From the NCBI GenBank assembly GCA_025454715.1, contig JALONY010000004.1, positions 1 to 18,295 on the forward strand: a stretch of 18,295 bases of DNA. The letters are read 5' to 3'. A model generated the notes under the pieces. It saw nothing but the letters and a program-made list of their open reading frames with translations, was not told where the DNA came from and did not search any database. Positions 1,468 through 18,295 of this stretch are shown here, one piece after another. Both the position numbers and the translations under genes were made by a program. How positions within the stretch are numbered: position 1 is the first letter of the stretch; each line of letters begins with the position of its first letter. The stretch comes from Anaerolineae bacterium (GTDB lineage: Bacteria; Chloroflexota; Anaerolineae; Aggregatilineales; Phototrophicaceae).

Positions 1468-1487
1468 CCTACCATTGCCATACGCGG

Positions 1488-1525: not shown

Positions 1526-1580
1526 GGTTGCGGTTACAATGGGGGTGAAATCGACGAACGACAAAAGGAGAAGGGTTTCG

Positions 1581-2849: not shown

Positions 2850-2868
2850 TTGAGGTGGTTGAATGACC

Positions 2869-2896
2869 AAAAGCCCTCGCTTCGGCGGGGGCTTTT
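2869..2896. terminator. Intrinsic terminator between convergent genes
   Basis: A 12-bp stem, AAAAGCCCTCGC with GCGGGGGCTTTT (one G-U pair), closed by a TTCG tetraloop. It ends in a short T-run on the + strand and, because the arms carry A and T runs, in a T-run on the - strand as well. It sits 20 bases after the cyclophilin stop and 8 bases before the end of the kinase gene, so it probably serves both as a bidirectional terminator. Confidence 0.88.
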
Positions 2897-2903
2897 GCGT
2901 TGG

Positions 2904-4112: not shown

Positions 4113-4731
4113 CGAGTTTCCGCCGTAGGTTCATGATGTGATAATCGACCGTGCGCTCGAGGCTTTCGGAGTCGGGGCCGAAGGCGTATTCGAGCAGTTG
4201 TTGGCGGCTGAAAACCCGACCGGGTTCACGCGCCATCATGACGAGCAACTTAAATTCGCGGGGGGTGAGGGTGATGAGGTATCCTTGGAACGTGACCTCA
4301 TGACGCGCCAATGAGATGAGGAGGTCGCCGAAGGTCAGGGTGTCTTGGTCGGCGTGGATGGGGCGCGTTTTGATGCGGCGCAGGGCGGTGCGGATACGGG
4401 CGACGAGCTGGCGGGGGCTGAAGGGTTTGGTGATGTAATCGTCTGCGCCAAGCTCGAGGCCGGTGAGGATGTCTTCTTCGGTGGTGCGGGCGGTCAGCAT
4501 GACGATGGGGATATCGCTGTCGGCACGCAGGATGCGGCAGACATCGAGTCCGTCGATTTTGGGCAGCATGAGGTCGAGGATGACCAAATCGGGCTGTTTT
4601 TCGCGGACGAGGGTCAGGGCGTCGCTACCGTTATCGGAGGTGAGGACTTGCCAGTGTTCTTTTTCGAGGTAGGTGCGGATGAGCTCGACCGTGAGCGGAT
4701 CGTCATCGACCACCAAGATGCGGGGAACCAT
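4033..4731 (-). CDS. OmpR/PhoB-family response regulator
   Basis: Two-domain transcription factor of 232 residues and standard family length. The receiver domain (1-120) has the acidic pocket D9/D10/D11, phospho-acceptor D53 in VILDLMLP, switch Thr T80 and conserved K102 in TKPFSP. The winged-helix DNA-binding domain (about 130-228) contains LTPREFKLL and the recognition-helix region RTVDYHIMNLRRKL, ending in the family's VFGVGYRF. The start ATG at 4731 is preceded by AAGCAAGG at a good distance. It is the first gene of a two-gene operon with the overlapping kinase gene and diverges from the SET-domain gene. The targets are unknown. This family often binds direct repeats and regulates its own promoter, but I see no convincing repeat here. 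Confidence 0.95.
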   Translation of the reverse strand: MVPRILVVDDDPLTVELIRTYLEKEHWQVLTSDNGSDALTLVREKQPDLVILDLMLPKIDGLDVCRILRADSDIPIVMLTARTTEEDILTGLELGADDYITKPFSPRQLVARIRTALRRIKTRPIHADQDTLTFGDLLISLARHEVTFQGYLITLTPREFKLLVMMAREPGRVFSRQQLLEYAFGPDSESLERTVDYHIMNLRRKLDDVHAAHYVQTVFGVGYRFAASTPAK

Positions 4732-4783
4732 GGTATACCTTGCTTTCTTGGGTCTGTTGGATGTGCGGTCATGAAGTGGTTAA

Positions 4784-4789
4784 ATTATA
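4784..4789 (-). promoter_or_regulatory. Candidate -10 box for the two-component operon
   Basis: On the - strand the sequence reads TATAAT, a perfect sigma-70-type -10 hexamer, about 45 bases before the regulator's ATG, in the AT-rich stretch 4780-4810. No good -35 box lies 16-18 bases upstream; the nearest, TTGTTA, is only 11 bases away. The promoter is plausible but not secure. Confidence 0.4.
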
Positions 4790-4828
4790 GAGCAAAACCT
4801 TAACAAAAACTGGGTTTATTGGGGGGAG

Positions 4829-4856
4829 CCTGCACTTGAGACGTGCGGGTTTTTTT
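4829..4856 (+). terminator. Intrinsic terminator or attenuator just upstream of the SET gene
   Basis: CCTGCAC (4829-4835) and GTGCGGG (4843-4849) form a 7-bp stem (one G-U pair) with a 7-base loop, followed at once by seven T residues (4850-4856). The structure works only on the + strand. No + strand gene lies upstream, since the neighbour there runs the other way, and the SET gene starts 30 bases downstream. Any transcript of that gene starting upstream has to read through it, which suggests attenuation or a short leader RNA. Confidence 0.6.
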
Positions 4857-4885
4857 AGGGGTTGTGGTCGAGGAGAGGAACGCGG

Positions 4886-5398
4886 ATGCTGCATCCAAAC
4901 GTGCGGGCGATTTTGGCGAGTTCGATACATGGGAATGGGTTGGTGGCCGTGGCGCCGATTGGTGCGGGCGAGGTGGTGAGCCGATTGGACGAGGGGATGC
5001 CGCGCATGACGATTGCGGCGTTCTTGGAGAAGTCGCAGGAAGAGCAGGACGACATCTCGCATTATGCCTACCAGATTTCGGAGACCGAGTTGGTGTTCGA
5101 GGGGGAGCCGGAGCGGTTCATGAACCACTCGTGTGATCCGAACGTGTGGTGGGCAGACTCGTATACGATGGTGGCGCGGCGCGACATCGCGGCGGGCGAG
5201 GAACTGACGTATGACTACGCCATGACCGAGGTCGATGTGCCGTTTGCGATGGATTGCCGGTGTGGTAGCCCGATGTGCCGGAAGCGGGTGACGAACCTCG
5301 ACCATTTGGATGCGGCGTGGCAGGCGCGGTATGGGGAGCATTTACCTGCCCACACGCTCAAGGCGATTGGGCGGGCAAAGGCGCAACCGACAGGCTGA
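4886..5398 (+). CDS. SET-domain protein (lysine methyltransferase family)
   Basis: Small SAM-dependent protein methyltransferase of 170 residues, about the length of a bare SET plus post-SET unit. ATG 4886 is chosen for AGGAGAGG at 4871-4878; an upstream TTG at 4862 is less likely. Seen: HGNGLVA (15-21) at the start of the fold, the SAM-binding NHSCDPN (80-86), GEELTYDY with the catalytic tyrosine region (104-111), and a post-SET motif C124-x-C126-x4-C131. With C83 these cysteines give the four zinc ligands known from eukaryotic SET enzymes. Family knowledge says lysine methylation; the bacterial target could be a ribosomal or DNA-binding protein and is not visible. The gene stands alone, divergent from the two-component operon, with a terminator-like hairpin before it and a strong terminator after it. 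Confidence 0.88.
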   Translation: MLHPNVRAILASSIHGNGLVAVAPIGAGEVVSRLDEGMPRMTIAAFLEKSQEEQDDISHYAYQISETELVFEGEPERFMNHSCDPNVWWADSYTMVARRDIAAGEELTYDYAMTEVDVPFAMDCRCGSPMCRKRVTNLDHLDAAWQARYGEHLPAHTLKAIGRAKAQPTG

Positions 5399-5420
5399 GG
5401 CTGGGGTGCGAGGCATACCG

Positions 5421-5460
5421 ACAGGGCTGCGGTGGGGGAACCCATTGCAGCCCTGTTTTT
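5421..5460 (+). terminator. Intrinsic terminator after the SET gene
   Basis: Perfect 10-bp stem ACAGGGCTGC (5421-5430) with GCAGCCCTGT (5447-5456), an inner TGGG/CCCA pair in the loop, and five T residues at 5456-5460. It lies 22 bases after the SET stop and 11 before the end of the convergent potA. There is no T-run on the - strand, so it mainly stops rightward transcription. Confidence 0.9.
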
Positions 5461-5470
5461 AGTTGCGGGG

Positions 5471-6595
<1,125 letters not shown>

Positions 6596-6623
6596 GGGGT
6601 TCCTCTGCTGAAACTAGACAAGA

Positions 6624-6651
6624 ACAGAGCGGGACTTGCGCCCCGCTCTGT
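6624..6651 (-). terminator. Hairpin between potD and potA (attenuator-like)
   Basis: Perfect 10-bp stem ACAGAGCGGG (6624-6633) with CCCGCTCTGT (6642-6651) and an 8-base loop. On the transcribed strand it is followed by TCTTGTCT, only moderately T-rich. Inside an ABC-importer operon such hairpins commonly stabilise the upstream binding-protein mRNA or partly stop transcription so that more binding protein than ATPase is made. Confidence 0.6.
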
Positions 6652-6681
6652 GTCGATGTTACCGATAGCGCCGGAGAGCGG

Positions 6682-7779
6682 TTAGAGGCCGCTCATGATT
6701 TTGACTTCGTCCCAAGCATCGTTGATGATCAGCTCGGTCTCGGGGCCGACATTCTCGATGAAGAAGGTGGCTTCGAGGACTTCTTCGGGGATGTTGACGC
6801 CGGAGCTTTGCATGAAGGCTTCCTCGACGAGGCCTTCTTCGATGGCGACGACGTTGGGGGTGGGGTAGCGGATGGTGTTGGTGATCGAGGCTTGGATTTC
6901 GGGCTCGAGGATGTAGTCCATCCAGACTTGGGCGAGGGCAGGGTTGGGGCCATCGGCCAGCAAGATGATGCTGGTGTAGTCGATGGCGCCGCCGACCGCG
7001 GGCACGACGTACTTGAGGTTGTCGCACTCGCACTCGTCGATTTGTTGACCGACATCACCACCGTATTCGACGGCGATATCGACTTCGCCTTGCGCCAGCA
7101 GGGCGTCGCCGTCATCGGCGGCGATGGAGACGACGTTGCCGCTGTTGGCGATCAGGAAATCGCGGGCTTCGGCGATTTCGTCGGGGTTGGTGGTGTTGGG
7201 GTCATAGCCCAGCACGGTGAGGGCGGCACCGAACATGATGCGGGGGCTATCGAGCCAAGCGACGCGGCACTCGCACTCGAAAACCTGCTCCCACGAGGTG
7301 ATTTCGTACCCGACGGTCTCGAGGTTGTAGCCGATGCCGGTGGTACCCCAAACGTAGGGGACAGAGTGCAGGTTCTCGGGGTCAAAGCTCTGGCCGAGGT
7401 ATTGCTCACCGATGTTGGCGAGATTGGGGATGTTGGCCTTGTCGATTTCACCCAGCAGGCCTTCGACGCGCATGATATCGACGACGTAGTCGGTCGGGAA
7501 GGCGACATCGTAGCCCGGGTTGCCTTGGCGCATACGGGCGAGCATGATTTCGTCGCTGTCGTACACGTCATAGAGGACGGTGACACCGCACAGCAACTCG
7601 AAGTCGGCGACGGTGTGGTCACCGATGTAGGTCGCCCAGTTGAAGACGCTGAGGGTTTGGCCTTCGAAACCCTCGGGGCACGTCCAGTCGGTCTCGACGA
7701 CGGTTTGCGGGGCTTCATCTTGGGCGCTGACGAGGGCGCTGAACGAGAGCAGGACGAGCAAGATGGACAGGATACGCAT
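6682..7779 (-). CDS. potD: Polyamine-family extracellular solute-binding protein
   Basis: Captures substrate outside the membrane and delivers it to PotB/PotC. It has 365 residues and a signal peptide with likely cleavage VSA/QDE at residue 19. There is no lipobox cysteine, so the mature protein would not be a classical lipoprotein. PotD-type features: LSVFNWATYIGD (W48 and Y51, matching the ligand-stacking NW..Y of the family), YDVYDSDEIMLARM, GYDVAFPTDYVV and a late VGGAIDYTSI strand. By eye, the family's C-terminal Trp-x-Asp ligand pair is not conserved (Asp-Tyr-Thr here), so the exact substrate is uncertain. It carries six cysteines (C34, C64, C169, C171, C250, C252), four of them in two Glu-Cys-Glu-Cys motifs. 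AAGGAGAA lies 10 bases before the ATG. It is third in the operon, 42 bases after potC. Confidence 0.9.
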   Translation of the reverse strand: MRILSILLVLLSFSALVSAQDEAPQTVVETDWTCPEGFEGQTLSVFNWATYIGDHTVADFELLCGVTVLYDVYDSDEIMLARMRQGNPGYDVAFPTDYVVDIMRVEGLLGEIDKANIPNLANIGEQYLGQSFDPENLHSVPYVWGTTGIGYNLETVGYEITSWEQVFECECRVAWLDSPRIMFGAALTVLGYDPNTTNPDEIAEARDFLIANSGNVVSIAADDGDALLAQGEVDIAVEYGGDVGQQIDECECDNLKYVVPAVGGAIDYTSIILLADGPNPALAQVWMDYILEPEIQASITNTIRYPTPNVVAIEEGLVEEAFMQSSGVNIPEEVLEATFFIENVGPETELIINDAWDEVKIMSGL

Positions 7780-7821
7780 GGGTATGGTGTTCTCCTTGTG
7801 TTGGACGAGCCGGATAGGGGT

Positions 7822-8754
7822 TTAGCGTGCGATGGGTCGGTCGGTATTGCGGTTTTGGAGGATGAGGGACAGACCGACGATCAGTGTCGAGAACAGCAGC
7901 ATCAGGGTCGAGAGGGCGTTGACCTCGGGGGTCACGCTCGTCTTGATGAGGCCGTGGACAAACATGGGGAGGGTGGTGGTGCCTACACCTGCGTTGAAGA
8001 ACGTCACGACCAGATCGTCCATCGAGAGGGTGAGGGCGAGCAACGCCCCTGAAATGACACCCGGCAGGATGAGCGGTAGGGTGATGCGCAAGAAGGTTTG
8101 GAAGCGGTTGGCGCCGAGGTCACGGGCGGCTTCTTCGAGGCGCGGGTTCATGTTGGCGAGGCGTGCGGCCACCACGATGGCGACGTAGGAGATGTTGAAG
8201 ACGACGTGGCCGATGATGATGGAGCCGAAGCCCGGGGTGGCGCGGACGCCGGTCTGGGACTCGATGAAACTGAAGACCAGCCCAAAGAAGATGGCGAGGG
8301 AGACGCCTTGGGTAATCTCGGGGATGACGACCGGCAGGTAAAGCAGGGAGTCAATCAGCTTTTTGCCCGGGAGCGGGGCGCGGGCGAGGCTGAGGGCGAC
8401 CATGGTGCCGATGACGGTGGCGATGAGGGTGGAGACGAGCGCGACCAGCAGGGTGTTGCCGAGGGCATTGAGCATCAAGCTGGTGGCGAAGCGGGCTTCA
8501 CCGCCCATGGTGCCTGCGAAGATGTTTTCGTACCAGCGCAGGGTGAAGCCACCCCATGAGCTGACGCTACGGGAGTCGTTGAACGAAAACAGGACGAGCA
8601 GCAGGATGGGCGCCCACAAGAAGAAGTAGGCGAACAGGGGCGTAGCGGTCAGGGCGACCTTGCCCACGGAGCGGAGGACGAGCCCCCCGCGAATGGCTTG
8701 CTGCGGCTCGACGGTACCACCGATGGTGGTACGGCTGATGACTTGATTACCCAT
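7822..8754 (-). CDS. potC: Spermidine/putrescine ABC importer permease
   Basis: One of two channel-forming permeases of the importer. The 310-residue protein has a cytoplasmic tail of about 35 residues, then hydrophobic helices at about 37-58, 98-122, 136-163, 176-198, 225-250 and 280-302. The EAA loop that contacts PotA is EEAARDLGANRFQTFLRITL, followed by PLILPG. N-terminal WAPILLLVLFSFNDSR and the EITQGVSLAIFFG segment are typical of PotC. It begins three bases after the potB stop (TAG-GAC-ATG), with GGGAGGG inside the end of potB as the probable ribosome-binding site, so the two permeases are translationally coupled. The N-terminal tail before the first helix is somewhat long for the family; an internal start is possible but has no better support. 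Confidence 0.93.
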   Translation of the reverse strand: MGNQVISRTTIGGTVEPQQAIRGGLVLRSVGKVALTATPLFAYFFLWAPILLLVLFSFNDSRSVSSWGGFTLRWYENIFAGTMGGEARFATSLMLNALGNTLLVALVSTLIATVIGTMVALSLARAPLPGKKLIDSLLYLPVVIPEITQGVSLAIFFGLVFSFIESQTGVRATPGFGSIIIGHVVFNISYVAIVVAARLANMNPRLEEAARDLGANRFQTFLRITLPLILPGVISGALLALTLSMDDLVVTFFNAGVGTTTLPMFVHGLIKTSVTPEVNALSTLMLLFSTLIVGLSLILQNRNTDRPIAR

Positions 8755-8757
8755 GTC

Positions 8758-9615
8758 CTACTTTTCCCTCCCGAAGCGCGCATAGATGAACAGCGCGGCC
8801 ATCACAACCAGCATCATCACGACCGACAAGGCAGCGCCCAGCGGCAAGTTGCCGCTACGGCTGTATTGTGCGTGGATGAGATTACCAATCATCAACCCTT
8901 GTGTGCCGCCCAGCAGGTCGGACGTGACGAACGTGCCGATGGCTGGGATGAACACCAACATGCAACCTGCGACCACGCCCGGAAGGGTGATGGGCAGCAT
9001 GACTCGCCAAAACGCCGTCCAGTCGTTGGCACCGAGGTCTTGCGCGGCCTCGATGAACCGGAAATCGAAACGACTGAGCGATGCGTAGATGGGTAGCACC
9101 ATGAACGGCAAGAAGCCGTAGACGAGGCCGAGCATGACCGCGAACTCCGTATTGAGGAGCTCGAGTGGCTCGGTGATGATGCCTGCGCCCATGAGCGAGG
9201 AATTGATGAGCCCTTCACGGCCTAGCAGGACGCGCCATGCGTAGGTGCGAACGAGGAAGTTCGTCCAGAAGGGGAGGATGACGAGAAAGAGGGCAAACTG
9301 CTTGCCAAAGCTGGAGCGGCGGCGGACAATGAAGTACGCCAAGGGGTAGCCAGCGATGAGGCAGATGATGGTGGTGACGAACGCGACATTGATGGAGCGC
9401 TGCATGACGACCCAGAAGGTGTCGAAAACGCGCTCGTACTGTGCGAACGTGAATGGGAGGGCGACTTGGCCACCTTGACTGCGCGTGAGGAAGCTGAACA
9501 CGAGCACAATCAGGAGCGGTAGTAGAAAGAACAACCCCAGCCACAACAGAGCCGGCAAGGCTAGGAGGATGCCGCTGGTTCTGGATGATTCTGGCGAAGT
9601 CACTCGGGCGGCCAC
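8758..9615 (-). CDS. potB: Spermidine/putrescine ABC importer permease
   Basis: Partner permease of PotC and first gene of the operon. It has 285 residues and starts with GTG at 9615; GAGGAG (9624-9629 on the opposite strand) lies eight bases upstream and decides this start. Helices lie at about 16-41, 72-95, 108-128, 156-180, 208-232 and 255-279. The EAA loop is EAAQDLGANDWTAFWRVMLP. N-terminal FFLLPLLIVLVFSFLTR and the LPFWTNFLVRTYAW segment are characteristic of PotB. The gene's base composition is less skewed than its operon partners' (the + strand here is not G-rich), possibly from membrane-protein codon needs. The substrate is inferred from family and operon only. Confidence 0.93.
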   Translation of the reverse strand: MAARVTSPESSRTSGILLALPALLWLGLFFLLPLLIVLVFSFLTRSQGGQVALPFTFAQYERVFDTFWVVMQRSINVAFVTTIICLIAGYPLAYFIVRRRSSFGKQFALFLVILPFWTNFLVRTYAWRVLLGREGLINSSLMGAGIITEPLELLNTEFAVMLGLVYGFLPFMVLPIYASLSRFDFRFIEAAQDLGANDWTAFWRVMLPITLPGVVAGCMLVFIPAIGTFVTSDLLGGTQGLMIGNLIHAQYSRSGNLPLGAALSVVMMLVVMAALFIYARFGREK

Positions 9616-9701
9616 GTGCCGAGCTCCTCATCGAAAAGTCTGTTGGTGAACAGCATAAAACCGACTCCCTGACAGGTTTACAGGTGTTTGTGAGAACCAA
9701 T

Positions 9702-9729
9702 ATAGTATCGCGATTTCGCTACGATGCAA
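9702..9729 (-). promoter_or_regulatory. Candidate promoter of the pot operon
   Basis: On the - strand, TTGCAT (9724-9729) and TACTAT (9702-9707) are spaced by 16 bases, about 90 bases upstream of the potB GTG. Both boxes are partial matches to the sigma-70 consensus. Between them and the gene lie repeated CCTGT/CAGG words (9669-9684) that could be an operator. It is read by eye only. Confidence 0.4.
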
Positions 9730-9798
9730 GTTAAGATTCTTTAAATGTTCCCCGTATGTTGGGGGATGATGGGGCAAGCGTTGGTTGAGGGGGATGAG

Positions 9799-11889
9799 AT
9801 GGGTTGGTCTGAGGGGCAAACGCGCCTGATTGAGCATGGCAGGGGCGGGTTGTGGGTACGTGGCGTGGCGGGGGCGGGCAAGACGACCGCGGCGGTCGAA
9901 CGGGTCAGGCGGTTGCTTGGGCGTGGGGTGGCGGGGCATACGGTGATGATTTGCACGCCACAGCGTTTGTTGTCGCGGCCTTACCGCGGGTTCGTGGGCG
10001 GTGCCGAGCGGGTGATGGGGAGTGACCCTCAGTTCATGACGTTCGGGCGTCTGACGCAGTATGGGGTGGGGTTGTATTGGCCGTGGGTGGCCGAGGCGGC
10101 TGGGTTGCCGACAGGCGTTCAGCCGACCTTTTTGGACGCGGAGAGCGCGCAGTGGTTGATGGGGTTGGTGGTTGCGCCACAGATGGCGCAGGCGGGCATT
10201 TTTCAGACGGTGAAGCTGCCGCGTGCGCGCATTTATGGGCAGGTGCTGGACAACATGAACAAGGCGGCGTTGGTTGGGTTCGATGTGCACACGATTGGCG
10301 AGCGGTTGAGCCGTGCGTGGTCGGGCGAGGTCAGCCAACTGCGAATGTATGAGGATGTGCAGACGGCGGCGGACTTGTTTCGGGCGTATTGCCTAGAGAC
10401 GGGTGCATTGGATTATTCATTGACGGTGGAGCTGTTTTTGCGGCATGTGTGGCCGTTACCTGCGGCGCGGGCGCATTTCGAGGCGATGGCGCGGCACATG
10501 ATTTATGACAACTGCGAAGAAGACGCGCCCGCCGCGCACCATGTGTTCGCCGAGCTGGTGGGGACGTGTGAGAGCGCGGTCGTGATGTTGGACGACGAGG
10601 CGAATTATCGTCGGTTTTTGGGGGCGGATGAGCAGTCGGCGGCGGGGGTGTTGGCCGAGGCTTGTGATGAATCGTTGGTGTTGGAGCCGTATGGCGATGT
10701 CGAGGCGCGGCGGGCATTGGTCGGGCATTTCGCCGTGAGTTTTGGGTTCGAGCGGGGGGAGTTGCCGGAGGCTGACCCATTCGTGGGGGTGGAGCGCCTC
10801 TCGGCGCGGTTGTTCCCCGATATGCTGGATCGGGTGGCGGAGCGGGTGGCGGCATGGGTAAAGGACGATGGCGTGCCGGTCAACGAGATTGCGTTGGTGT
10901 CGCCATACGTCTCTGATGGGTTGTTGTTCGCGATGCGGTATCGGTTGGAGCGAATGGGTATCGAGACGCGCTCGTTGCGCCCGTCGCGGATGTTGCGGCA
11001 AGAGCCGGTGGTGCGTTGTCTGGTGACGCTGGCGTATTTGGCGCATCCGGCATGGGGTATCGTGCCGACGGTGGAAGACATCGGGCATGTGTTGGTGACG
11101 GTCATCGAGGGGTTGGATCCGGTGCGGGCGGCGTTATTGGCGTCCGTCAGCCGGAAACGGTTTAGCCCGTTCGAGACATTGGTTGCCGCGATGCAGGAAC
11201 GGGTGACCTTGGCTTTGGGCGAGCGGTACGAGCGCTTGCGCCGGTGGGTGGAGGCTTACCAGCAGGGCGAGCCGATTGCACTAGACCACTTTTTTAGCCG
11301 CGTGTATGCCGAGGTGTTGTCGCGGCGCGGGTTTCGGATGCATGGGGATTTCGAGATGGCGCAGGCGGTCGCGGCATTGGTGGACTCGGCTGCTTCGTAT
11401 CGCTTGATGATGGCGGCTTTGCCGATGGAGGTGGACAGCGCGGTCTTGTATTTGGAGGGGCTGAGCAGCGGGTTGTTGGGGCAGCGTAGCCTAAGCGAAC
11501 CGGATGTCTTGGAAGGGGCGGGCGTCTTGATTGCACCGGCCTATACCTTCTTGATGGCCAATCAGTTCGTGACACATCAGGTGTGGTTGGATGCGGGGAG
11601 TGGCGGCTGGACGGAACGGCTGGCGCAACCGTTGGCACACCCATATGTGTTGAGCGCGCAGTGGGAAGATGGGCGGGTGTGGACGGGCATCGATGAGGGA
11701 TTGAGCGCGGCACAAGGGGCGTATCGGCTGATTGCCGGGTTGTTGCGGCGATGCCGAGGGACGGTGGTGTTGGCGTCGAGCGAGTATGGGGAACAGGGGA
11801 TGCCCCAACAAGGGGTGTTGCTGAACGCCTTTGGGCGAATTGTGCGGCGGGTGGCGAAGCGTGAAGGGCGGAAGACCGATGGGGTTTGA
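9799..11889 (+). CDS. Degenerate UvrD/RecB-fold protein (AddB-like pseudo-helicase)
   Basis: The 696-residue protein has the order of elements of an SF1A helicase but looks hydrolysis-dead. Kept: Q-motif region EGQTRLIEH, Walker A GVAGAGKTT (22-30), a motif Ic-like segment FMTFGRLTQ, the ALDYSLTVELF region, and a 2A domain start (NEIALVSPYVSDGLL, then IETRSLRPSRM). Changed: the Walker B position reads YDNCEED (236-242), Asn instead of catalytic Glu; motif III reads DDEANYRRFLGAD with Ala for the usual Gln; motif V (K-G-L-E) and motif VI (T-R-A) are absent. The same pattern (ATP site kept, motor lost) is known for AddB. ATG 9799 is chosen for GAGGGGG just before it; ATG 9745 would add 18 residues without a binding site. 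It is first of three overlapping genes, and a scaffold or DNA-end-recognition role beside the next two products is inferred. Confidence 0.78.
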   Translation: MGWSEGQTRLIEHGRGGLWVRGVAGAGKTTAAVERVRRLLGRGVAGHTVMICTPQRLLSRPYRGFVGGAERVMGSDPQFMTFGRLTQYGVGLYWPWVAEAAGLPTGVQPTFLDAESAQWLMGLVVAPQMAQAGIFQTVKLPRARIYGQVLDNMNKAALVGFDVHTIGERLSRAWSGEVSQLRMYEDVQTAADLFRAYCLETGALDYSLTVELFLRHVWPLPAARAHFEAMARHMIYDNCEEDAPAAHHVFAELVGTCESAVVMLDDEANYRRFLGADEQSAAGVLAEACDESLVLEPYGDVEARRALVGHFAVSFGFERGELPEADPFVGVERLSARLFPDMLDRVAERVAAWVKDDGVPVNEIALVSPYVSDGLLFAMRYRLERMGIETRSLRPSRMLRQEPVVRCLVTLAYLAHPAWGIVPTVEDIGHVLVTVIEGLDPVRAALLASVSRKRFSPFETLVAAMQERVTLALGERYERLRRWVEAYQQGEPIALDHFFSRVYAEVLSRRGFRMHGDFEMAQAVAALVDSAASYRLMMAALPMEVDSAVLYLEGLSSGLLGQRSLSEPDVLEGAGVLIAPAYTFLMANQFVTHQVWLDAGSGGWTERLAQPLAHPYVLSAQWEDGRVWTGIDEGLSAAQGAYRLIAGLLRRCRGTVVLASSEYGEQGMPQQGVLLNAFGRIVRRVAKREGRKTDGV

Positions 11890-14119
11890 ACCGAGGGCGG
11901 AACAGCGCGAGATTTTGGCGTATCGCGGGGGGCGCATGGCGATTGCGGCGGTGCCCGGGAGCGGAAAGACGCGCACGTTGTCGTATTTGGCGGCGCGTCT
12001 GGTGGCCGAGGCCGACTTGCGGGAAGAGCAAGAGGTGCTGGTGGTGACGATGAGCAACTCGGCGGCGGACAACTTCTCGCAACAAATCGAGGGGTTTTTG
12101 CGCGAGACGTTCGATTTGCCGACGGGGTTCGGTTATCGGGTGAGGACGCTGCACGCGCTGGCGCATGACATCGTGCGGATGCGGCCAGAGTTGTTGGGCT
12201 TGAGCGAGCGGTTCGAGATTATCGACGAGGCCGAGAGCGAGCGATTGCTGACCGATGTCGTTCAGGGCTGGGTGAAGGCGTCGCCCGGGTGGTATTACGA
12301 GCTGGATGAGAACCCCGACACGGCGCGTTCGCGTAGTCATGACTGGTTGGACTTGCTGATGCGGTCGGCCAATGCGTTCATCAAGAAAGCTAAGGATGAG
12401 CGATGGAGTGTGGGTGGGGTATCGGCGGGCTTGAAGGCGACGCAAGAACCGCTGATATTGGCGCGGGCGTGCCTCGATATTTATGAGCGGTATCAGGGGT
12501 TGTTGGATTATCGTGGCGCGGTCGATTTTGCGGACTTAATCGCTGGGGCATTGGTGGTTTTGGGGCGTGATGCGGCTCTATTGGCATTGTTGCAAGACCG
12601 CTGGGCATATGTGCTGGAAGACGAGGCGCAAGACAGCACATTGGCACAAGAGGCCTTGTTGCGCGTATTGACGGAGCGACACGGCAACTGGGTGCGCGTG
12701 GGCGACCCGAACCAAGCGATTTACGAGACGTTTACGACGGCCAGCCCAGAGCACCTGCGGCGGTTTATGGGGGAGGCTGGCGTGGTGGTGCGGGCGTTGC
12801 CACGGTCTGGGCGCTCGGCGGGGGGGATTATCGCGGCGGCCAATACGTTGTCCCGTTGGGCGCGTGAACACCCCAATGACGCGGTGCGTGCGGTGGTTCC
12901 ATTGGCGCCGCCCGAGATTTTGCCGACCCTGCCGGACGACCCGCAACCCAACCCCCCTGATCAGGGGCGGGCATTGACGATTGCGGTGGGGCTTCAGACC
13001 TCGGACGAGGAGCGCAAGCGGGTGGCGGAGCACATCCGCAAGAGCATCGATGCCGGTCATCAGATGACGATGGCGGTGCTGGTGCCGCGCAACAAATCGG
13101 GGGCAGAGATGGCTAAAGCGTTGGAGGCGGTGGGCGTGCCGTTTTCGGAGCTGTTGCGGACGCCGAGCAGCACGCGCAAGGCGGCACATGCGTTGTATGC
13201 GGTGGTCGATGTGTTGGCGCATCCGGTGGATATGGGGCGGTTGGAGCGAGCCTATGCCGCGTGGTTGACGATGCGGACGGGGACGGACGAACTCGATGTG
13301 CCGGGCGCGAGTGAGCTGGTGTTTCGGCTGTTGAAGCGGAATGTGGTGGGGGTCGAGGATGTGTTGTTTGGCGATGAGGCGCCGATTGCCGAGGTGTTGG
13401 AGCGGCTGAGCGGGGAAGATATGGCTCTGGCGCAGGGTTTTTGGGTGTTTCGCGAGATGATGCAGCGCTGGTTGCGGGCGGCGGTATTGCCGATTGACCA
13501 GATTGTGCTGATTATCGGGCAGGAGCTGTTCTCGCAACCGGTAGACCTCGCCATCACGCACGCCTTGGGTTTGACGATGCGGCGGGCTGCGGAGCGTGAA
13601 CCGACATGGCAATTGGCGCAATTCGCTGGGGAACTGAAGCAGATTGCAGAGAACCGCGGGGTGATTTATGGCTTTGGCGATGCGGATGAGGGCGAGGGTG
13701 CGGCACCCGAGGCTACGGTGACGATTTCGACGATGCACCGGTCTAAAGGGTTGGAATGGGATCGGGTGTATTTGACCTCGGTCAACTCGTATGATTTTCC
13801 GTCGGGGGAGCCGCAGGACACGTATTTGGGTGAGCGGGATTTCGTCAAAGGCAAGCTGGACGTGGTTCAGGAGGCCGTGGCACAGCTTGAGGCGGTGATG
13901 ATGCCTGAGCAAGTGGCTTATGAGGCTGGGGCGGCGACGCAGCGCGCCAGAACGTACTATATCGCCGAGCGGTTGCGGTTGTTGTACGTGGGGATGACGC
14001 GGGCGCGGCGCGAGTTGTTCATGACCGCAAATCAAGGGCAAGGGCAGGCGCGCCCAGCCAAACCGCTATTGATGTTGGACGCATGGCTGAGGGGGACATA
14101 TGACGACGCCGCGCAGTAA
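11879..14119 (+). CDS. UvrD/PcrA-like SF1 DNA helicase, AddA-like, no nuclease domain
   Basis: ATP-driven 3'-5' DNA translocase by family. The 746 residues contain every SF1A motif: Walker A AVPGSGKT (24-31), Ia VVTMSNSAADNF, Ic RTLHALAHDIV, Walker B DEAQD (248-252), III VGDPNQAIYETF (274-285), IV with SGRSAGGIIAAAN, V TMHRSKGLEW (618-627) and VI YVGMTRAR (703-710). It ends about 30 residues after motif VI, so it lacks the RecB-type nuclease domain that AddA and AdnB carry; that activity is encoded by the next gene. ATG 11879 gives an 11-base overlap with the preceding gene; an upstream in-frame start at 11831 is less likely because the canonical N-terminus begins at FEPRAEQREIL. Probably the motor of a DNA-end resection complex. 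A stand-alone repair helicase is the alternative. Confidence 0.88.
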   Translation: MGFEPRAEQREILAYRGGRMAIAAVPGSGKTRTLSYLAARLVAEADLREEQEVLVVTMSNSAADNFSQQIEGFLRETFDLPTGFGYRVRTLHALAHDIVRMRPELLGLSERFEIIDEAESERLLTDVVQGWVKASPGWYYELDENPDTARSRSHDWLDLLMRSANAFIKKAKDERWSVGGVSAGLKATQEPLILARACLDIYERYQGLLDYRGAVDFADLIAGALVVLGRDAALLALLQDRWAYVLEDEAQDSTLAQEALLRVLTERHGNWVRVGDPNQAIYETFTTASPEHLRRFMGEAGVVVRALPRSGRSAGGIIAAANTLSRWAREHPNDAVRAVVPLAPPEILPTLPDDPQPNPPDQGRALTIAVGLQTSDEERKRVAEHIRKSIDAGHQMTMAVLVPRNKSGAEMAKALEAVGVPFSELLRTPSSTRKAAHALYAVVDVLAHPVDMGRLERAYAAWLTMRTGTDELDVPGASELVFRLLKRNVVGVEDVLFGDEAPIAEVLERLSGEDMALAQGFWVFREMMQRWLRAAVLPIDQIVLIIGQELFSQPVDLAITHALGLTMRRAAEREPTWQLAQFAGELKQIAENRGVIYGFGDADEGEGAAPEATVTISTMHRSKGLEWDRVYLTSVNSYDFPSGEPQDTYLGERDFVKGKLDVVQEAVAQLEAVMMPEQVAYEAGAATQRARTYYIAERLRLLYVGMTRARRELFMTANQGQGQARPAKPLLMLDAWLRGTYDDAAQ

Positions 14120-14903
14120 GAGGTTTACGCAGACCAACCTCGAAGATTATCTGGCGTGTGCCTATCGGTATTGGCTGGCGCATGTGCAAGAAGTGCGTTG
14201 CCCTGCGCCCGAGGTGGAGCCGCTGACGGATTGGGAAGTACAGACGCGGCGGGGGAGCCGCTTTCACCGGATGGCTGAGCAGGTGGTGGCGGGGGTGCGT
14301 GCCGATTTGCTCGACCCGAAAGACGACGCCATCTTGGCGGAGTGGTGGGCGCGCTTCAAGCGTGATGCGATGCGTGGTTTGCCGACGACGCGGTATGCGG
14401 AGGTGAGCTTATCGGTGCCGTTCGGCGGGTTGCGTTTGGCGGCCAAGCTGGATTTGTTGGCGGTCGAGGCGGGCAAGCGCTTAGTCATCGTGGATTATAA
14501 GACCAACAAGAAGGCCTCGCCGAAGTCGTTGCGCGGGCGGTTGCAGACCCAGATTTACCGCTATGTGGTGGCAAGGGCGGGTAGCGCATTTACGGGCGGG
14601 GTCGAGGTGAAGCCCGAACATGTCGAGATGCGGTATTGGTTCGCGGCGGATGAGAGGCCGTCGGTGCGCTTGGTGTATTCACAGGCGGAATTTGAAGCGG
14701 ATGAAGCAGAGCTGACCGCATTGGTTGAGCGGTTGAGGGCACAGACGACATTTCCCAAGACGGATGATGTGTCGCGCTGTGGGTTTTGCACGTATCGGTC
14801 GGTCTGTGACCGTGGGCAGGCTGGCTGGGTGGAGGAACATGACGCCGAACCGGTGGTTGGGTGGGGCGGTGAGCGTGAGGGACTGTTCGGGGATGTAGAG
14901 TAA
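14100..14903 (+). CDS. PD-(D/E)XK exonuclease with AddB/Cas4-type Fe-S cysteines
   Basis: RecB-family single-strand or end-processing nuclease of 267 residues. Active-site elements in order: RRGSRFHRMAE (H56), an acidic residue at about E101, D118 in AKLDLL, D132 and K134 in IVDYKTNK, and the QxxxY motif Q149/Y153. Four cysteines, C20 in the first helix and C227-x2-C230-x5-C236 near the end, have the spacing of the 4Fe-4S clusters in AddB and Cas4 nucleases, where the cluster pins the N- and C-terminal ends of the domain together. ATG 14100 has GAGGGGG four bases upstream and overlaps the helicase gene by 20 bases, so the three genes form one coupled operon. No cas1, cas2 or repeat array is present, which argues against a CRISPR role. 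It is probably the detached nuclease module of an AddAB-like complex. Confidence 0.87.
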   Translation: MTTPRSKRFTQTNLEDYLACAYRYWLAHVQEVRCPAPEVEPLTDWEVQTRRGSRFHRMAEQVVAGVRADLLDPKDDAILAEWWARFKRDAMRGLPTTRYAEVSLSVPFGGLRLAAKLDLLAVEAGKRLVIVDYKTNKKASPKSLRGRLQTQIYRYVVARAGSAFTGGVEVKPEHVEMRYWFAADERPSVRLVYSQAEFEADEAELTALVERLRAQTTFPKTDDVSRCGFCTYRSVCDRGQAGWVEEHDAEPVVGWGGEREGLFGDVE

Positions 14904-14909
14904 GTAAGG

Positions 14910-14937
14910 GCGGGGGGAGCCAAAATGCTCCCCCCGC
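14910..14937. terminator. Strong GC hairpin between convergent genes
   Basis: Perfect 11-bp stem GCGGGGGGAGC (14910-14920) with GCTCCCCCCGC (14927-14937) and a 6-base loop, 6 bases after the nuclease stop and 12 before the end of the convergent gene. Neither strand has a T-run after the stem, so termination efficiency is uncertain; it may also protect the mRNA 3' ends. Confidence 0.6.
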
Positions 14938-14949
14938 GGCATGATGGGG

Positions 14950-16152
14950 CTAGACTTGGGGGGTGGGGGTGACGAGTAAGTCGAGGCGCTCACCGATGGC
15001 ACGGAAGGCCGTTAGGGCACGGTCGAGGTGCTCGCGGGTGTGGGTGGCCATGTAACTGGTGCGCAGTAGGCTGAGGTTGGGGGGGACGCCGGGCGGGATG
15101 ACGGGGTTGGTGTAGACGCCTTCGTCAATCAGGGCACGCCACGCGAGGATGGTGCGATACTGGTCGCGGATGATGACGGGGATGATGGGGGTGTTGCTCT
15201 GGCCGATGTCATAGCCGATGGCGCGTAGGTTCTCGCGCATGTAGTCGGCATTTTCCCACAGGCGGGCGACGCGCTCCGGCTCGTTTTCCATGATGTCGAG
15301 GGCGGCGAGGGCGGCGGCGGCGGCGGGTGCGGGCAGGGCTGCCGAGAAGATGAGGGCGCGGGCGTGGTGTTGGATGTAGTGGATGACATCCTTACTCCCT
15401 GCGATGAAGCCCCCGATGGAGGCAAAACTTTTGCTGAAGGTGCCCATGATGAGATCGACTTGGTCGGTCAAGCCGAAGTGCGCGGCGGTGCCGCGGCCTT
15501 GGCCAGTGACTCCGATGCCGTGGGCGTCATCGACCATGATGCGGGCGCCGTAACGCTTGCAGATGGCGACGATGTCGTGCATCGGGGCGATGTCGCCACC
15601 CATGCTGTAGACGCCATCGACGATGACGAGTTTGCCGGCGTCGGCGGGGAGCTCGGCAAGGACGCGCTCGAGGCTGCTGATGTCGTTGTGCCGGAAGCGC
15701 TTGAGCTCGCCACGGCTGAGCATACAGCCATCGACGATGCAGGCGTGAGCATCTTTGTCGATGATGACGTAATCGCCCTTGCCGACGATGGCCGAGATGG
15801 TGCCGACGTTGGTTTGGTAGCCCGTGGAGAAGACGAGGGCGGCCTCTTTGCCCATGAAGCGGGCGAGGCGGCGGTCTAGCTCGAGGTGCAGCTCGAGGGT
15901 GCCATTGAGGAAGCGAGAGCCGGTGACGCTGGTGCCATAGCGCTCGAGAGCGTCTTGGGCGGCGGCGCGGACGCGGGGGTCGGTGGTGAGGCCGAGGTAA
16001 TTGTTGGAGCCAATCATCACGACCTCGCGCCCTTCAAAGGTCGCGGTGGTGCCTTCGGAGTCGCTTAGGGCGCGGAAGTAAGGGTAAATCCCCAGCTCAA
16101 TGGCTTCTTTCGCTTGTGTGAAGCCGTGTACTTTGTCGAAGATGTCGGTCAC
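14950..16152 (-). CDS. Alpha-oxoamine synthase, serine palmitoyltransferase-like
   Basis: PLP enzyme that condenses an amino acid with an acyl-CoA and releases CO2. It has 400 residues, the family norm. Seen: FEGREVVMIGSNNYLGL, GTSVTGSRFLNGT, stacking His H136 in KDAHACIVDG, DGVYSMGGDIAP, MVDDAHGIGVTG (D208, H211) and PLP Lys K241 in GTFSKSFASIGGF. The FSKS-ASIGGF form is that of bacterial serine palmitoyltransferases and their close relatives. 8-amino-7-oxononanoate synthase and 2-amino-3-ketobutyrate ligase usually read differently around this lysine. No biotin or threonine-degradation gene is nearby. The GTG at 16152 is preceded by GAGGGA. A candidate promoter overlaps a palindrome at 16288-16310. 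The substrate assignment, and hence sphingolipid or other long-chain base synthesis, is an inference; the fold and chemistry are firm. Confidence 0.85.
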   Translation of the reverse strand: MTDIFDKVHGFTQAKEAIELGIYPYFRALSDSEGTTATFEGREVVMIGSNNYLGLTTDPRVRAAAQDALERYGTSVTGSRFLNGTLELHLELDRRLARFMGKEAALVFSTGYQTNVGTISAIVGKGDYVIIDKDAHACIVDGCMLSRGELKRFRHNDISSLERVLAELPADAGKLVIVDGVYSMGGDIAPMHDIVAICKRYGARIMVDDAHGIGVTGQGRGTAAHFGLTDQVDLIMGTFSKSFASIGGFIAGSKDVIHYIQHHARALIFSAALPAPAAAAALAALDIMENEPERVARLWENADYMRENLRAIGYDIGQSNTPIIPVIIRDQYRTILAWRALIDEGVYTNPVIPPGVPPNLSLLRTSYMATHTREHLDRALTAFRAIGERLDLLVTPTPQV

Positions 16153-16270
16153 GACATATCCCTCATCTGGATATCAGCGGTCATCATGAGAAGCGCCCAC
16201 ACGAATAGAAAACAGTCACATGAGGTGGGATAGCAATCGCACGTCTTTGGGTGGGGCGCTCATTGGCGTA

Positions 16271-16299
16271 AGTTTAGCGTGTGTTGAATGAGTTAACAA
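16271..16299 (-). promoter_or_regulatory. Candidate promoter of the oxoamine synthase gene
   Basis: On the - strand, TTGTTA (16294-16299) and TAAACT (16271-16276) are spaced by 17 bases, giving a leader of about 110 bases before the GTG at 16152. The -35 box lies inside the palindrome 16288-16310, so a protein bound there would block this promoter. Confidence 0.4.
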
Positions 16300-16310
16300 G
16301 TTTAACTCAT
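16288..16310. promoter_or_regulatory. Perfect 23-bp palindrome, probable operator
   Basis: ATGAGTTAA (16288-16296), spacer CAAGT, TTAACTCAT (16302-16310): perfect 9-bp arms in the AT-rich middle of the 242-base divergent intergenic region. The size and symmetry fit a dimeric repressor site such as TetR-, MarR- or LacI-type factors use. No regulator gene is adjacent, so the binding protein is unknown. No T-run follows, so it is not a terminator. Confidence 0.6.
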
Positions 16311-16323
16311 CTTGAGAGAACGC

Positions 16324-16353
16324 TTGCGAGAACGGTGCATCATCGGTTAGAAT
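16324..16353 (+). promoter_or_regulatory. Candidate promoter of the small membrane protein gene
   Basis: TTGCGA (16324-16329) and TAGAAT (16348-16353) are spaced by 18 bases; the expected start is about 35 bases before the ATG at 16395. The -10 box matches five of six consensus bases. The palindrome at 16288-16310 ends 14 bases upstream. Confidence 0.5.
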
Positions 16354-16394
16354 CGGGATATTGGTACATCGTTTAGAGGCTGGAGCGAAAAGCG

Positions 16395-16634
16395 ATGAAT
16401 TCGTTGTTCTTGCGCCGTGTTTTTGTTTGGACGGTCAGCATGGTCTTGGGCACGCTGATTGGCTGGCTGATGATTACGTTCATGTTGCCTGCCTTGAGCC
16501 CCGACAAGAACGCCGTGGCGATTTCGGTCGCCGAGTACGGCATCATCTACTTCCTCGTGACCGTGGTTCCCATCGGCTTGATTTTCGTGACTTGGCTGGA
16601 CTACTACCTCGACACGCGGATTTGGCCTGACTAG
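16395..16634 (+). CDS. Small two-helix membrane protein of unknown function
   Basis: A 79-residue protein I do not recognise. It has a basic start (MNSLFLRRV), a first hydrophobic helix about residues 8-33, a short loop with SPDKN, a second helix about 46-68, and an acidic aromatic end (WLDYYLDTRIWPD). The positive-inside rule places the N-terminus in the cytoplasm and, with two helices, the C-terminus too. GGAG lies nine bases before the ATG. The gene has its own candidate promoter and an excellent terminator, so it is probably transcribed alone. It is accepted as real because of this gene-like setting and the clean helix pattern. An overlapping frame at 16361-16630 lacks these features. Confidence 0.75.
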   Translation: MNSLFLRRVFVWTVSMVLGTLIGWLMITFMLPALSPDKNAVAISVAEYGIIYFLVTVVPIGLIFVTWLDYYLDTRIWPD

Positions 16635-16653
16635 GCTTGTGCCCAGACGCCTG

Positions 16654-16690
16654 AAGCCCGACACCCTCGCTATGAGGTGTCGGGCTTTTT
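16654..16690 (+). terminator. Intrinsic terminator after the small membrane protein gene
   Basis: Perfect 12-bp stem AAGCCCGACACC (16654-16665) with GGTGTCGGGCTT (16676-16687), a 10-base loop, and a T-run 16686-16690. It lies 20 bases after the stop codon. Confidence 0.93.
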
Positions 16691-16694
16691 GTTT

Positions 16695-16736
16695 GCCCGC
16701 TGCGGTGAAGCGGGCGTGAGAGCGGGCTTTATATTT
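16695..16736 (+). repeat. GCCCGCT with two competing AGCGGGC partners
   Basis: GCCCGCT (16695-16701) can pair with AGCGGGC at 16709-16715 (7-base loop) or with a second copy at 16721-16727, which is followed by TTTATATTT. The two stems exclude each other; the second resembles a weak terminator. It lies between the terminator at 16654 and the HMG-CoA reductase promoter region. It could be a back-up terminator or a degenerate repeat. Confidence 0.45.
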
Positions 16737-16771
16737 CGCATAGTCATTAGACAAACCACAAAAGAGAGCTT

Positions 16772-16795
16772 TTGACACGGGACGATACCTATACT
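16772..16795 (+). promoter_or_regulatory. Candidate leaderless promoter of HMG-CoA reductase gene
   Basis: TATACT (16790-16795) matches five of six bases of a -10 box and ends seven bases before the ATG at 16803, which puts the transcript start at or beside the start codon. A perfect TTGACA lies at 16772-16777 but only 12 bases upstream, too short for the usual 16-18 spacing. No Shine-Dalgarno sequence precedes the ATG, which supports leaderless translation. The arms ATACC/GGTAT (16786-16790 and 16800-16804) flank the box. Confidence 0.5.
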
Positions 16796-16802
16796 CATCG
16801 GT

Positions 16803-18098
16803 ATGAATGACACAAAAACCTCTCAACTCTCACAATTTTACAAACGGCCAGTCGGCGAGAGACGTTCGGTCTTGGCGGACTGGGTTCAGGGCGATGGCCA
16901 ACACTTGGCCGATGTCCTCGACGGTGGGTTATCGGTCGCGCAAGCCGACTCGATGATCGAGAACGTGGTTGGGGTGTATGGGTTGCCGATGGGGGTGGCT
17001 ACCAACTTTCGGATTAACGGAAAAGACTATCTGATACCGATGGTGGTGGAAGAGCCCTCAGTTGTGGCGGCGGCCAGCAATGCAGCCAAGCTGTTTCGGC
17101 ACGGGGGCGGGTTCCAAACCCAAAGCGATGCCCCTGTGATGATCGGACAAATTCAAGTTTTGGAGGTCGAAGACCTCGAAAGCGCGATGCAGGCGGTTCT
17201 CGATGCTAAGGCCACCTTGATGGCGAAAGCCGATATGGTCGGTGGGAGCATCGTGCGGCGGGGGGGTGGTGCCCGTGATCTGACTGTCCGAGCTATCCGA
17301 GAGTCGGCTGTTGGGTCAATGCTGGTGGTACATCTCATGATGGATGTACGCGATGCGATGGGAGCGAACGCAATCAATACAGCCGTCGAGCACATCGCGC
17401 CAGACATTGCCGAGCTGACGGGTGGGCGCGTGCACCTGCGAATCTTGAGCAACCTGACGGATGCGCGTAAAGCAAAGGCTTGGGGGACGGTTCCGGCTGG
17501 TGCGTTGCATCATGACCCAAGCGAGGCCAAGCGCATCATCCGAGGTATCGTCGAGGCATCGGCCTTTGCCGAGGAAGACCCTTACAGAGCCACGACGCAC
17601 AACAAAGGCGTGATGAACGGAATCGATGCCGTGGTCATCGCTACGGGAAATGATTGGCGCGCCATCGAAGCGGGCGCGCACGCCTTTGCTGCACGTCGTG
17701 GCTCGTATACCAGCTTGTCCCGATTTCGGGAGGATGCAAGCGGCGATTTGTACGCGGAAATTGAGCTGCCGTTGGCGGTCGGGATTGTGGGTGGGGCAAC
17801 CCGTGTGCACCCGACGGCACAACTCGCCTTACAGTTGCTGGGCGTACAGAGCGCGCAAGAATTGGCAGAGGTCATCGTCGCCGTCGGGCTGGCACAAAAC
17901 TTCGCTGCGGTGAAGGCTTTGGCCGGTGACGGCATCCAGAAAGGACATATGCGGTTGCACGCCAAGCAATTGGCCTTGGCGGCGGGCGCGCCGGTCGAGA
18001 TGGTCGCTCAGGTCGTGGACATCATGACCCGCGAGGGGCAAATCCGACTGGAACGCGCCAAAGAATTGGTTCAACAACTCAGCCATACAACGGAGTGA
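16803..18098 (+). CDS. mvaA: Hydroxymethylglutaryl-CoA reductase, class II
   Basis: Interconverts HMG-CoA and mevalonate with NAD(P)H, the committed step of the mevalonate route to isoprenoids. It has 431 residues, soluble, without the membrane domain of eukaryotic class I enzymes. Class II motifs: MIENVVGVYGLPMGVATNF, MVVEEPSVVAAAS (catalytic E84), the dinucleotide-binding DAMGANAINTAVE, HNKGVMNGIDAVV (K268), ATGNDWRA (D284) and GIQKGHMRLHAK (H382). Each catalytic residue is one position after its counterpart in the Pseudomonas mevalonii enzyme. N-terminal SQFYKRPVGERR matches the usual family start and supports ATG 16803, which has no ribosome-binding site. With HMG-CoA synthase encoded next, a biosynthetic rather than mevalonate-degrading role is inferred. 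Its third codon positions are less G-biased than those of the other + strand genes. Confidence 0.95.
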   Translation: MNDTKTSQLSQFYKRPVGERRSVLADWVQGDGQHLADVLDGGLSVAQADSMIENVVGVYGLPMGVATNFRINGKDYLIPMVVEEPSVVAAASNAAKLFRHGGGFQTQSDAPVMIGQIQVLEVEDLESAMQAVLDAKATLMAKADMVGGSIVRRGGGARDLTVRAIRESAVGSMLVVHLMMDVRDAMGANAINTAVEHIAPDIAELTGGRVHLRILSNLTDARKAKAWGTVPAGALHHDPSEAKRIIRGIVEASAFAEEDPYRATTHNKGVMNGIDAVVIATGNDWRAIEAGAHAFAARRGSYTSLSRFREDASGDLYAEIELPLAVGIVGGATRVHPTAQLALQLLGVQSAQELAEVIVAVGLAQNFAAVKALAGDGIQKGHMRLHAKQLALAAGAPVEMVAQVVDIMTREGQIRLERAKELVQQLSHTTE

Positions 18099-18107
18099 GG
18101 TCAAGAG

Positions 18108-18149
18108 ATGAACGAAACACCCCGAACGAGGGTAACGAGCGCTTGTTGA
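18108..18149 (+). CDS. 13-codon leader ORF overlapping the HMG-CoA synthase start
   Basis: ATG at 18108, with GGAG and GAGG words 6-15 bases upstream, opens a 13-residue frame (MNETPRTRVTSAC) that ends in TGA at 18147-18149. Its last base is the first of the next ATG (TGATG). The layout fits translational coupling: ribosomes ending here restart on the synthase gene, which has no close binding site of its own. Alternatives are chance, or a single-base error that splits the true N-terminus of the synthase. Expression is unproven. Confidence 0.4.
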   Translation: MNETPRTRVTSAC

Positions 18150-18295
18150 TGCAGCCTGTACGGCAGGTCGGGATTGTGGGCTATGGTGCTTACGTGCCGC
18201 GCTACCGGTTGCCCGGGAGCGAGGTCGCCCGTATCTGGACGAAGGGGATGGGCGGAAGCCCAATCAAAGAGAAGGCCGTCGCGGGGCTGGATGAA
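18149..18295 (+). CDS. Hydroxymethylglutaryl-CoA synthase, N-terminal fragment
   Basis: First 49 codons of a gene that runs past the window end. The N-terminus VGIVGYGAYVPRYRL and later IKEKAVAGLDE are characteristic of the archaeal/bacterial HMG-CoA synthase family, which condenses acetyl-CoA with acetoacetyl-CoA to make the substrate of the reductase encoded 50 bases upstream. The active-site Cys lies beyond the window. The start is uncertain: ATG 18149 gives the family-like N-terminus, but the frame is open back to a GTG at 18095 that overlaps the reductase stop. Co-transcription with the reductase is very likely. Confidence 0.82.
   Translation, partial: MQPVRQVGIVGYGAYVPRYRLPGSEVARIWTKGMGGSPIKEKAVAGLDE

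Follow-up and report, generated by a model that had tools for sequence, protein, structure and literature searches.

The resection of broken DNA ends in bacteria is usually told as the work of RecBCD, AddAB or AdnAB. In AddAB two helicase or helicase-like chains are each fused to a nuclease, and AdnA and AdnB are each nuclease-fused as well; RecQ-RecJ/RecFOR end resection pairs a 3'-5' helicase with RecJ and leaves a 3' overhang. We describe here a trio of overlapping genes, A, B and C, in an 18,295-nucleotide stretch of the genome of an Anaerolineae bacterium (Chloroflexota; assembly GCA_025454715.1, contig JALONY010000004.1, positions 1 to 18,295; this whole stretch is called the window below). 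A encodes a catalytically dead helicase homologue, B an intact helicase and C a free nuclease. With a probability that we put at roughly 0.6, the three form one helicase-nuclease unit, made of parts like those of AddAB and AdnAB yet distinct from both, with a dedicated long RecJ as its working partner in many lineages. The motif states, the overlaps and synteny, co-inheritance even where the genes are unlinked, and an A-B-C-recJ cassette in Salinibacter are read directly from the sequences; from these we infer a complex, its activity and its role.

Several features set the trio apart from AddAB: neither A (696 amino acids, aa) nor B (746 aa) has a nuclease match and C stands separately, so that there is no second nuclease in the trio; A has no Pfam ADDB_N match; and the trio coexists with AddAB-like pairs. 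It resembles AddAB in the inactive helicase fold of one subunit (A, by fold and motifs) and in the C...C-x2-C-x5-C pattern of a PD-(D/E)XK nuclease, seen in both sequence and fold. Compared with AdnAB, the modules lie on three genes, and compared with RecQ-RecJ, a UvrD-type helicase is joined by a dead partner and by an additional nuclease, while the RecJ is a supernumerary paralogue of greater length. One genome survey gives RecBCD, AddAB or AdnAB for 88% of genomes, with very few having both RecBCD and AddAB, and reports AdnAB from Actinobacteria only (PMC6452273).

Judged by the kinds of genes involved, the nearest published parallel is the cyanobacterial ago/cas4/uvrD/recJcy/Synpcc7942_0992 set, which brings a UvrD, a RecJ paralogue and Cas4-like/PD-(D/E)XK nucleases together in one phenotype: in Synechococcus elongatus, both RSF1010 plasmids and natural transformation fare better when ago, cas4, uvrD, recJcy, rpoD2 or a PD-(D/E)XK gene is lost. 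Unlike the trio with its protein A, the set comes with no mention of a dead helicase in the accessible part of that paper (PMC10653904). A two-gene operon found mostly in Clostridiales places a UvrD-type helicase beside a Cas4-like (pfam12705) nuclease, much as B stands beside C, but the accessible portion of its description mentions neither an A-like gene nor a RecJ; the context of this operon was judged repair-like, and UvrD-Cas4 fusions were placed in defence contexts (PMC5704561). Within the literature searched, which most subscription papers fall outside, none of the papers listed describes the trio, its dead helicase or the cassette A-B-C-recJ, as judged by titles and the beginnings of abstracts. 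We class the trio as a novel variant among helicase-nucleases, outside AddAB and AdnAB membership. It occurs in about half of the class sample, with or without AddAB, has the same modules on separate genes and is tied to a second RecJ. It would add to the account of break resection a system whose parts are individually testable, could expose the role of an ATP-binding dead helicase, which is hard to separate in fused enzymes, and suggests a connection, open to experiment, with the genes cas4/uvrD/recJcy by which cyanobacteria restrict the uptake of plasmids.

Gene layout and motif content of the trio

The features of the three genes are as follows (window positions, all on the + strand).

9799-11889, +: gene A, 696 aa from an ATG start; catalytically dead superfamily 1A (SF1A, UvrD-type) helicase homologue without a nuclease domain
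9862-9885, +: Walker A (motif I) of A, GVAGAGKT, kept; Lys in 28/28 aligned homologues
10507-10521, +: degenerate motif II of A, DNxEE; catalytic Glu of DExQ replaced by Asn in 25/28 and His in 3/28
11879-14119, +: gene B, 746 aa from an ATG start; full UvrD/PcrA-type helicase, motifs intact, without a nuclease domain
14100-14903, +: gene C, 267 aa from an ATG start; free PD-(D/E)XK nuclease of AdnA/AddB/Cas4-like type
14157-14159, +: C20 of C, presumed first cluster cysteine, 30/30 rows
14778-14807, +: C227-x2-C230-x5-C236 of C, presumed other three 4Fe-4S ligands, 30/30 rows

The location of the genes and their overlaps (11 bases between A and B, 20 between B and C) agree with a preliminary description of this DNA, made from the sequence alone, and the motifs and Pfam matches uphold its reading of the modules as a dead helicase, a live helicase and a free Fe-S-type nuclease. 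An alternative in-frame ATG at 9745 would extend A to 714 aa. In an NCBIfam scan, none of the three proteins reached a cut-off.

For A, 28 of 35 rows were kept in the motif alignment by length and E-value. Apart from the changes listed above, the Gln of motif III is lost in all 28 homologues and motif V is lost too, and the Arg of motif VI is kept in 27, with Lys in the remaining one. As the ATP-binding Lys is retained, A is best described as a degenerate helicase and not as one stripped of all features. Pfam gives a single sub-threshold UvrD match, at the Walker A region (14.6 bits against a cut-off of 23), and fold comparison gives an inactive helicase fold, with RecBCD chains in the list of fold matches. 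ADDB_N has no match in A at E <= 1, whereas in a relative the AddB-like protein reaches 79.8 bits against a cut-off of 26.6. A profile of A searched against PDB sequences finds UvrD/PcrA, with AddB, RecC and AdnA unmatched at E <= 1, and hhalign places A about equally near B and AddB (92 vs 90). On the strength of this profile search and of the equal nearness to B, we rejected the idea that A is merely an AddB that has lost its C-terminus.

B matches Pfam UvrD-helicase (4.5e-42) and UvrD_C (5.3e-20), and its profile finds PcrA (1e-47), AdnB (8e-31) and AddA (2e-29) among PDB sequences. Its helicase motif residues are invariant in 25 aligned rows (27 of 34 rows were kept by length and E-value for the motif alignment; the second alignment, A2, holds 25 B rows). 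Against the NCBIfam UvrD equivalogs B scores 134-135 bits, far under the cut-offs of 965 and 1144, and it is thus a relative of UvrD and not UvrD itself.

C matches Pfam PDDEXK_1 over positions 1-247 with 106.8 bits. Among Cas4 models, which fit far less well, it just passes Pfam Cas_Cas4 (23.9, cut-off 22.7) and falls short of NCBIfam TIGR00372 (34.2, cut-off 65). The cysteines and catalytic residues of C, in an alignment that kept all 30 of 30 C rows, count in favour of the proposed unit, as do the folds of A and C, and from its sequence C looks like an Fe-S-type PD-(D/E)XK nuclease of the AdnA/AddB type. Its fold is also close to that of the Argonaute-associated nuclease ACE1 (PDB 9iab, 9iac). 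The preliminary description had proposed a single nuclease site, and C is indeed the sole nuclease match in the trio; for the locus as a whole this is incomplete, as a long RecJ is often present and a second nuclease gene lies before A in one family. In three genomes of that family (f2), the gene immediately preceding A is an additional PD-(D/E)XK gene, whose cysteine pattern is its own:

L059:8528-9541, -: f2-family upstream PD-(D/E)XK gene
L052:6173-7168, +: f2-family upstream PD-(D/E)XK gene
L047:6457-7479, +: f2-family upstream PD-(D/E)XK gene

Synteny, co-inheritance and the long RecJ

When relatives were searched for conserved three-gene synteny, A, B and C were found in this order, in a single stretch, in 28 of 37 compiled genomes, including the genome of the window, so that the trio is neither a chance arrangement nor an assembly artefact. 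In half of the contiguous loci (14 of 28), the end of A overlaps the start of B by 4 or 8 bases (longest open frames). A sample of 400 genomes of the phylum has A in 45, all within the class of the host, and A is present in 32 of 41 genomes of the host's order, again including its own. The A-type homologues that carry names, a minority (best 120 of 299 rows), come from Anaerolineae, Anaerolineales, Thermoflexia or Chloroflexi/Chloroflexota; a Caldilineaceae metagenome-assembled genome is one named homologue-bearing contig.

We then considered 199 genomes of the class, with E-value cut-offs set at 1e-20 for A, 1e-100 for B, 1e-15 for C, 1e-25 for AddB and 1e-80 for AddA and RecJ. Matches to A were found in 109 of them, to B in 107 and to C in 100; all three are present in 93 and none of the three in 86. 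A and B agree in presence or absence in 191 of the 199 genomes; in 2000 within-family shuffles the agreement averaged 174 genomes and never exceeded 185 (10 of 52 families are mixed). The observed agreement lies beyond every shuffle, and family-level kinship does not account for it, although shuffling within families is a coarse control. A and B are adjacent in 63 of the 104 genomes having both. In the other 41 they lie on different contigs (37 genomes) or more than 1.5 kb apart on one contig (four); in one of these four, G411, a 4.0-Mb contig has A, B and C mutually more than 0.8 Mb apart. Distances between homologues are correlated, with r of 0.91 for A-B, 0.77 for A-C and 0.72 for B-C. In genome G009 (L040:6809-11829, -), A lies 63 kb from C, beside a response-regulator gene and a long recJ, with no B-type helicase among the matches listed. 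Protein fusions were considered as evidence of interaction and rejected: the long frames in G452, G500, G112 and G461 are neither A-B nor B-C fusions, that of G452 reading into an apparent non-coding frame and that of G461 into the adjacent dnaN; the frames in G485, G491 and G549 received a more cursory look.

A recJ gene often completes the cassette. Of the 42 loci containing C that were compared, 25 have a same-strand recJ within 1.2 kb after it, and several of the other 17 have little downstream sequence. Where not cut by a contig end, these RecJ proteins are about 700-870 aa long, with about 200 residues beyond DHH, DHHA1 and RecJ_OB; the three that were scanned all have these domains and score 463-525 bits against TIGR00644 (cut-off 396.9). 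The ordinary RecJ of the class matches up to about position 575-615 of a 773-position model. We counted as long RecJ the rows past about position 650, together with high-scoring partial rows (for example in G442 and G526), the latter by our own reading; matches were listed down to about 2e-152, and weaker partial copies are possible in genomes with or without the trio. By this count at least 80 of the 199 genomes have a long RecJ, and all 80 have A or B, 76 of them both, while the 87 genomes with neither gene have none among the matches listed. None of the 2000 within-family shuffles gave zero long RecJ in trio-less genomes (minimum 1, mean 7). Of the 78 genomes that have both C and a long RecJ among the matches listed, 47 have the RecJ at most 3.5 kb downstream of C, 34 of these within 200 bases. 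A genome of the same genus as the host (G001) has a cut A followed by B, C and recJ in a row.

Outside the class, the complete cassette was found on plasmid pSR56 of Salinibacter ruber M8 (Rhodothermota), where A, B, C and recJ follow in that order. The profile scores are 792 (A), 902 (B) and 310 (C) bits, A carries the motifs GTGKTT and DNVEE, and four more Salinibacter ruber proteins are 87-90% identical to it. In a FastTree phylogeny of A rooted on the very distant Ilyobacter sequence, Salinibacter falls inside the Anaerolineae in a 36-tip clade with support 0.996; the trees of B and C do not settle its placement (support 0.55 and 0.53). No other plasmid record had a match to C (E <= 1e-5) or B (E <= 1e-30). 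A phage origin of the trio was rejected, as a phage search gave no match for A (E <= 1e-3) or B (E <= 1e-30) and viral contigs gave none for A. The Ilyobacter sequence used as root belongs to a remote relative of A in Ilyobacter and Propionigenium (Fusobacteriota; L104:11818-13791), 657 aa long, with a Walker A motif and VDNLEN as read by eye. The Ilyobacter protein (20% identity) is plasmid-encoded, and no annotated helicase or nuclease gene lies within 12 kb of it; 31 proteins were found in this branch.

It might be argued that each of the three is a repair gene with a function of its own, and that they merely happen to share operons and lineages through vertical inheritance and operon conservation. 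Their dispersal in several families and the correlated, vertical-looking distances fit such a view, but none of the 2000 within-family shuffles reproduced either the agreement of A and B or the lack of a listed long RecJ in trio-less genomes, and the joint presence in Salinibacter also speaks against it, so that we regard it as improbable. Relatives mostly keep or lose the three genes together, often along with the long RecJ, and the trio therefore looks like one DNA-processing machine; the motifs, the synteny (28/37) and the A/B concordance (191/199) back the proposal of one functional unit in the preliminary description.

Several points nevertheless weigh against a single unit. A occurs without B in five of the 199 genomes and B without A in three, and the partial sets comprise A and B without C (11), A and C (3), A only (2), B and C (3) and C only (1). 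The separation of A and B onto different contigs may partly be assembly, and the distance correlations are also expected from vertical inheritance alone. A long RecJ is not among the matches listed for 32 of the 112 genomes with A or B, including all nine of family f15, and no recJ lies beside C in the window itself; the one RecJ match in the genome of the window falls outside the matches listed and is of uncertain type. Given its near-equal hhalign scores to B and AddB, A may or may not descend from AddB, and the strand polarity used in the mechanism below is taken from the biochemistry of UvrD-type helicases, the AddB nuclease and RecJ.

Coexistence with AddAB

The preliminary description had the trio acting in place of RecBCD/AddAB. 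In the genome of the window (71% complete, 444 contigs), an AddB-like gene was found on contig C167, and contigs C354 and C211 carry AddA-like pieces at their ends:

L054:7779-10996: AddAB-like piece
L063:4457-6964: AddAB-like piece
L064:3615-4259: AddAB-like piece

The AddB-like gene is apparently frame-split and stops after two of four expected cysteines, and the AddA-like gene is spread over the two contig ends; these breaks could be assembly error or decay. In G011, which belongs to the same family, the trio is on one contig and an AddB-AddA pair without breaks is on a different one. The AddAB proteins of the class are below the NCBIfam AddA and AddB cut-offs, and AddB passes Pfam ADDB_N.

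Across the 199 genomes, AddB was found in 62 and AddA in 59. AddB is present in 40 of the 109 genomes with A and in 22 of the 90 without it (Fisher p 0.07), a weak trend to company with no mutual exclusion; it is likewise present in 40 of the 104 genomes with A and B, and in 38 of the 93 with the full trio. In 16 checked genomes that lack both the trio and AddB, no PDDEXK_1 match was found in a frame of AddA or AddB size except for a 25-bit partial match in a 2149-aa frame, so that neither the trio nor AddAB looks obligatory. A three-gene replacement of AddAB/AdnAB that does the bulk of double-strand-break resection would suit the module content and the 55 full-trio genomes (of 93) without detected AddB. 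The 38 others, the unbroken pair that G011 has besides its trio, the lack of mutual exclusion and the 16 checked genomes with neither system argue against it, and the AddA- and AddB-like pieces in the genome of the window already contradict it there; for the window's own genome we rejected it, and in general we regard it as very improbable.

Proposed mechanism, role and neighbouring genes

If the trio acts as one unit, B would move 3' to 5' on the strand ending 3' at the DNA end and peel off the 5'-ended strand. Degradation of that strand would fall to C, as a nuclease of the AddB/AdnA type, together with RecJ (5'-3'), and a 3' overhang would be left. A would bind ATP without hydrolysis and may serve as a clamp or DNA reader, like the dead helicase of AddB or RecC. 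In AddB and RecC, Chi is read by the dead helicase domains, and ATP binding at a second site, in AddB, modulates Chi recognition or the complex (PMC4824097). Because no nuclease domain was found on B, the 3'-strand nuclease of the AddA type appears to be missing from the trio. Where both systems occur, the trio would operate beside AddAB. The unit probably processes replication ends that are broken or stalled, or else destroys DNA that comes in from outside.

Tentatively, and at less than even odds, the trio may be a fourth kind of bacterial DNA-end helicase-nuclease beside RecBCD, AddAB and AdnAB. It would combine a dead motor locked with ATP, a live motor and an AddB/AdnA-type nuclease, the latter two as separate proteins, and often a dedicated second RecJ. 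Such a system would have passed as a cassette from one phylum to another, perhaps with incoming DNA as its main target; with all of its nuclease activity aimed at the 5' strand, it would give 3' overhangs without a Chi-controlled switch.

As the main alternative, the trio might be primarily a barrier to foreign DNA, unwinding and degrading plasmid, phage or transforming DNA in the manner of the S. elongatus cas4/uvrD/recJcy/PD-(D/E)XK set; the likeness of C to the Argonaute-associated ACE1 would fit this role. Against PADLOC models, B matches many GajB and one DRT helicase, C matches mainly Cas4, with weak matches to DruK and others, and A matches none; Gabija GajA is unmatched by A, B and C at E <= 0.001 among the matches listed. 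The trio as a whole has no PADLOC system match, and we therefore rejected Gabija or another catalogued defence system. This result, the mostly housekeeping-looking neighbours in nine loci inspected by eye, and the lack of matches for A in phages and viral contigs and for B in phages speak against a primarily defensive role, which we hold to be less likely than not, though it need not exclude DNA-end processing by the same unit.

In the window, an aminotransferase-family gene on the opposite strand comes after C. Divergent from the trio is a four-gene ABC transporter cluster (5471-9615, -) consisting of an ATPase with a TOBE domain, a binding protein and two permeases, which resembles spermidine/putrescine uptake (permeases and substrate judged by eye). 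At 4862-5398 (+), a small SET-domain protein scores 57 bits against a cut-off of 22.4; SET-domain proteins are uncommon in bacteria. Elsewhere, the frame of A in G461 (L086:6682-10143, -) continues out of the adjacent dnaN, in a stretch with unread letters, and in G028 (L060:2752-8154, +) A lies downstream of yidC- and jag-type genes and is followed by a DNA methylase gene; dnaN, yidC and jag are often found near the replication origin.

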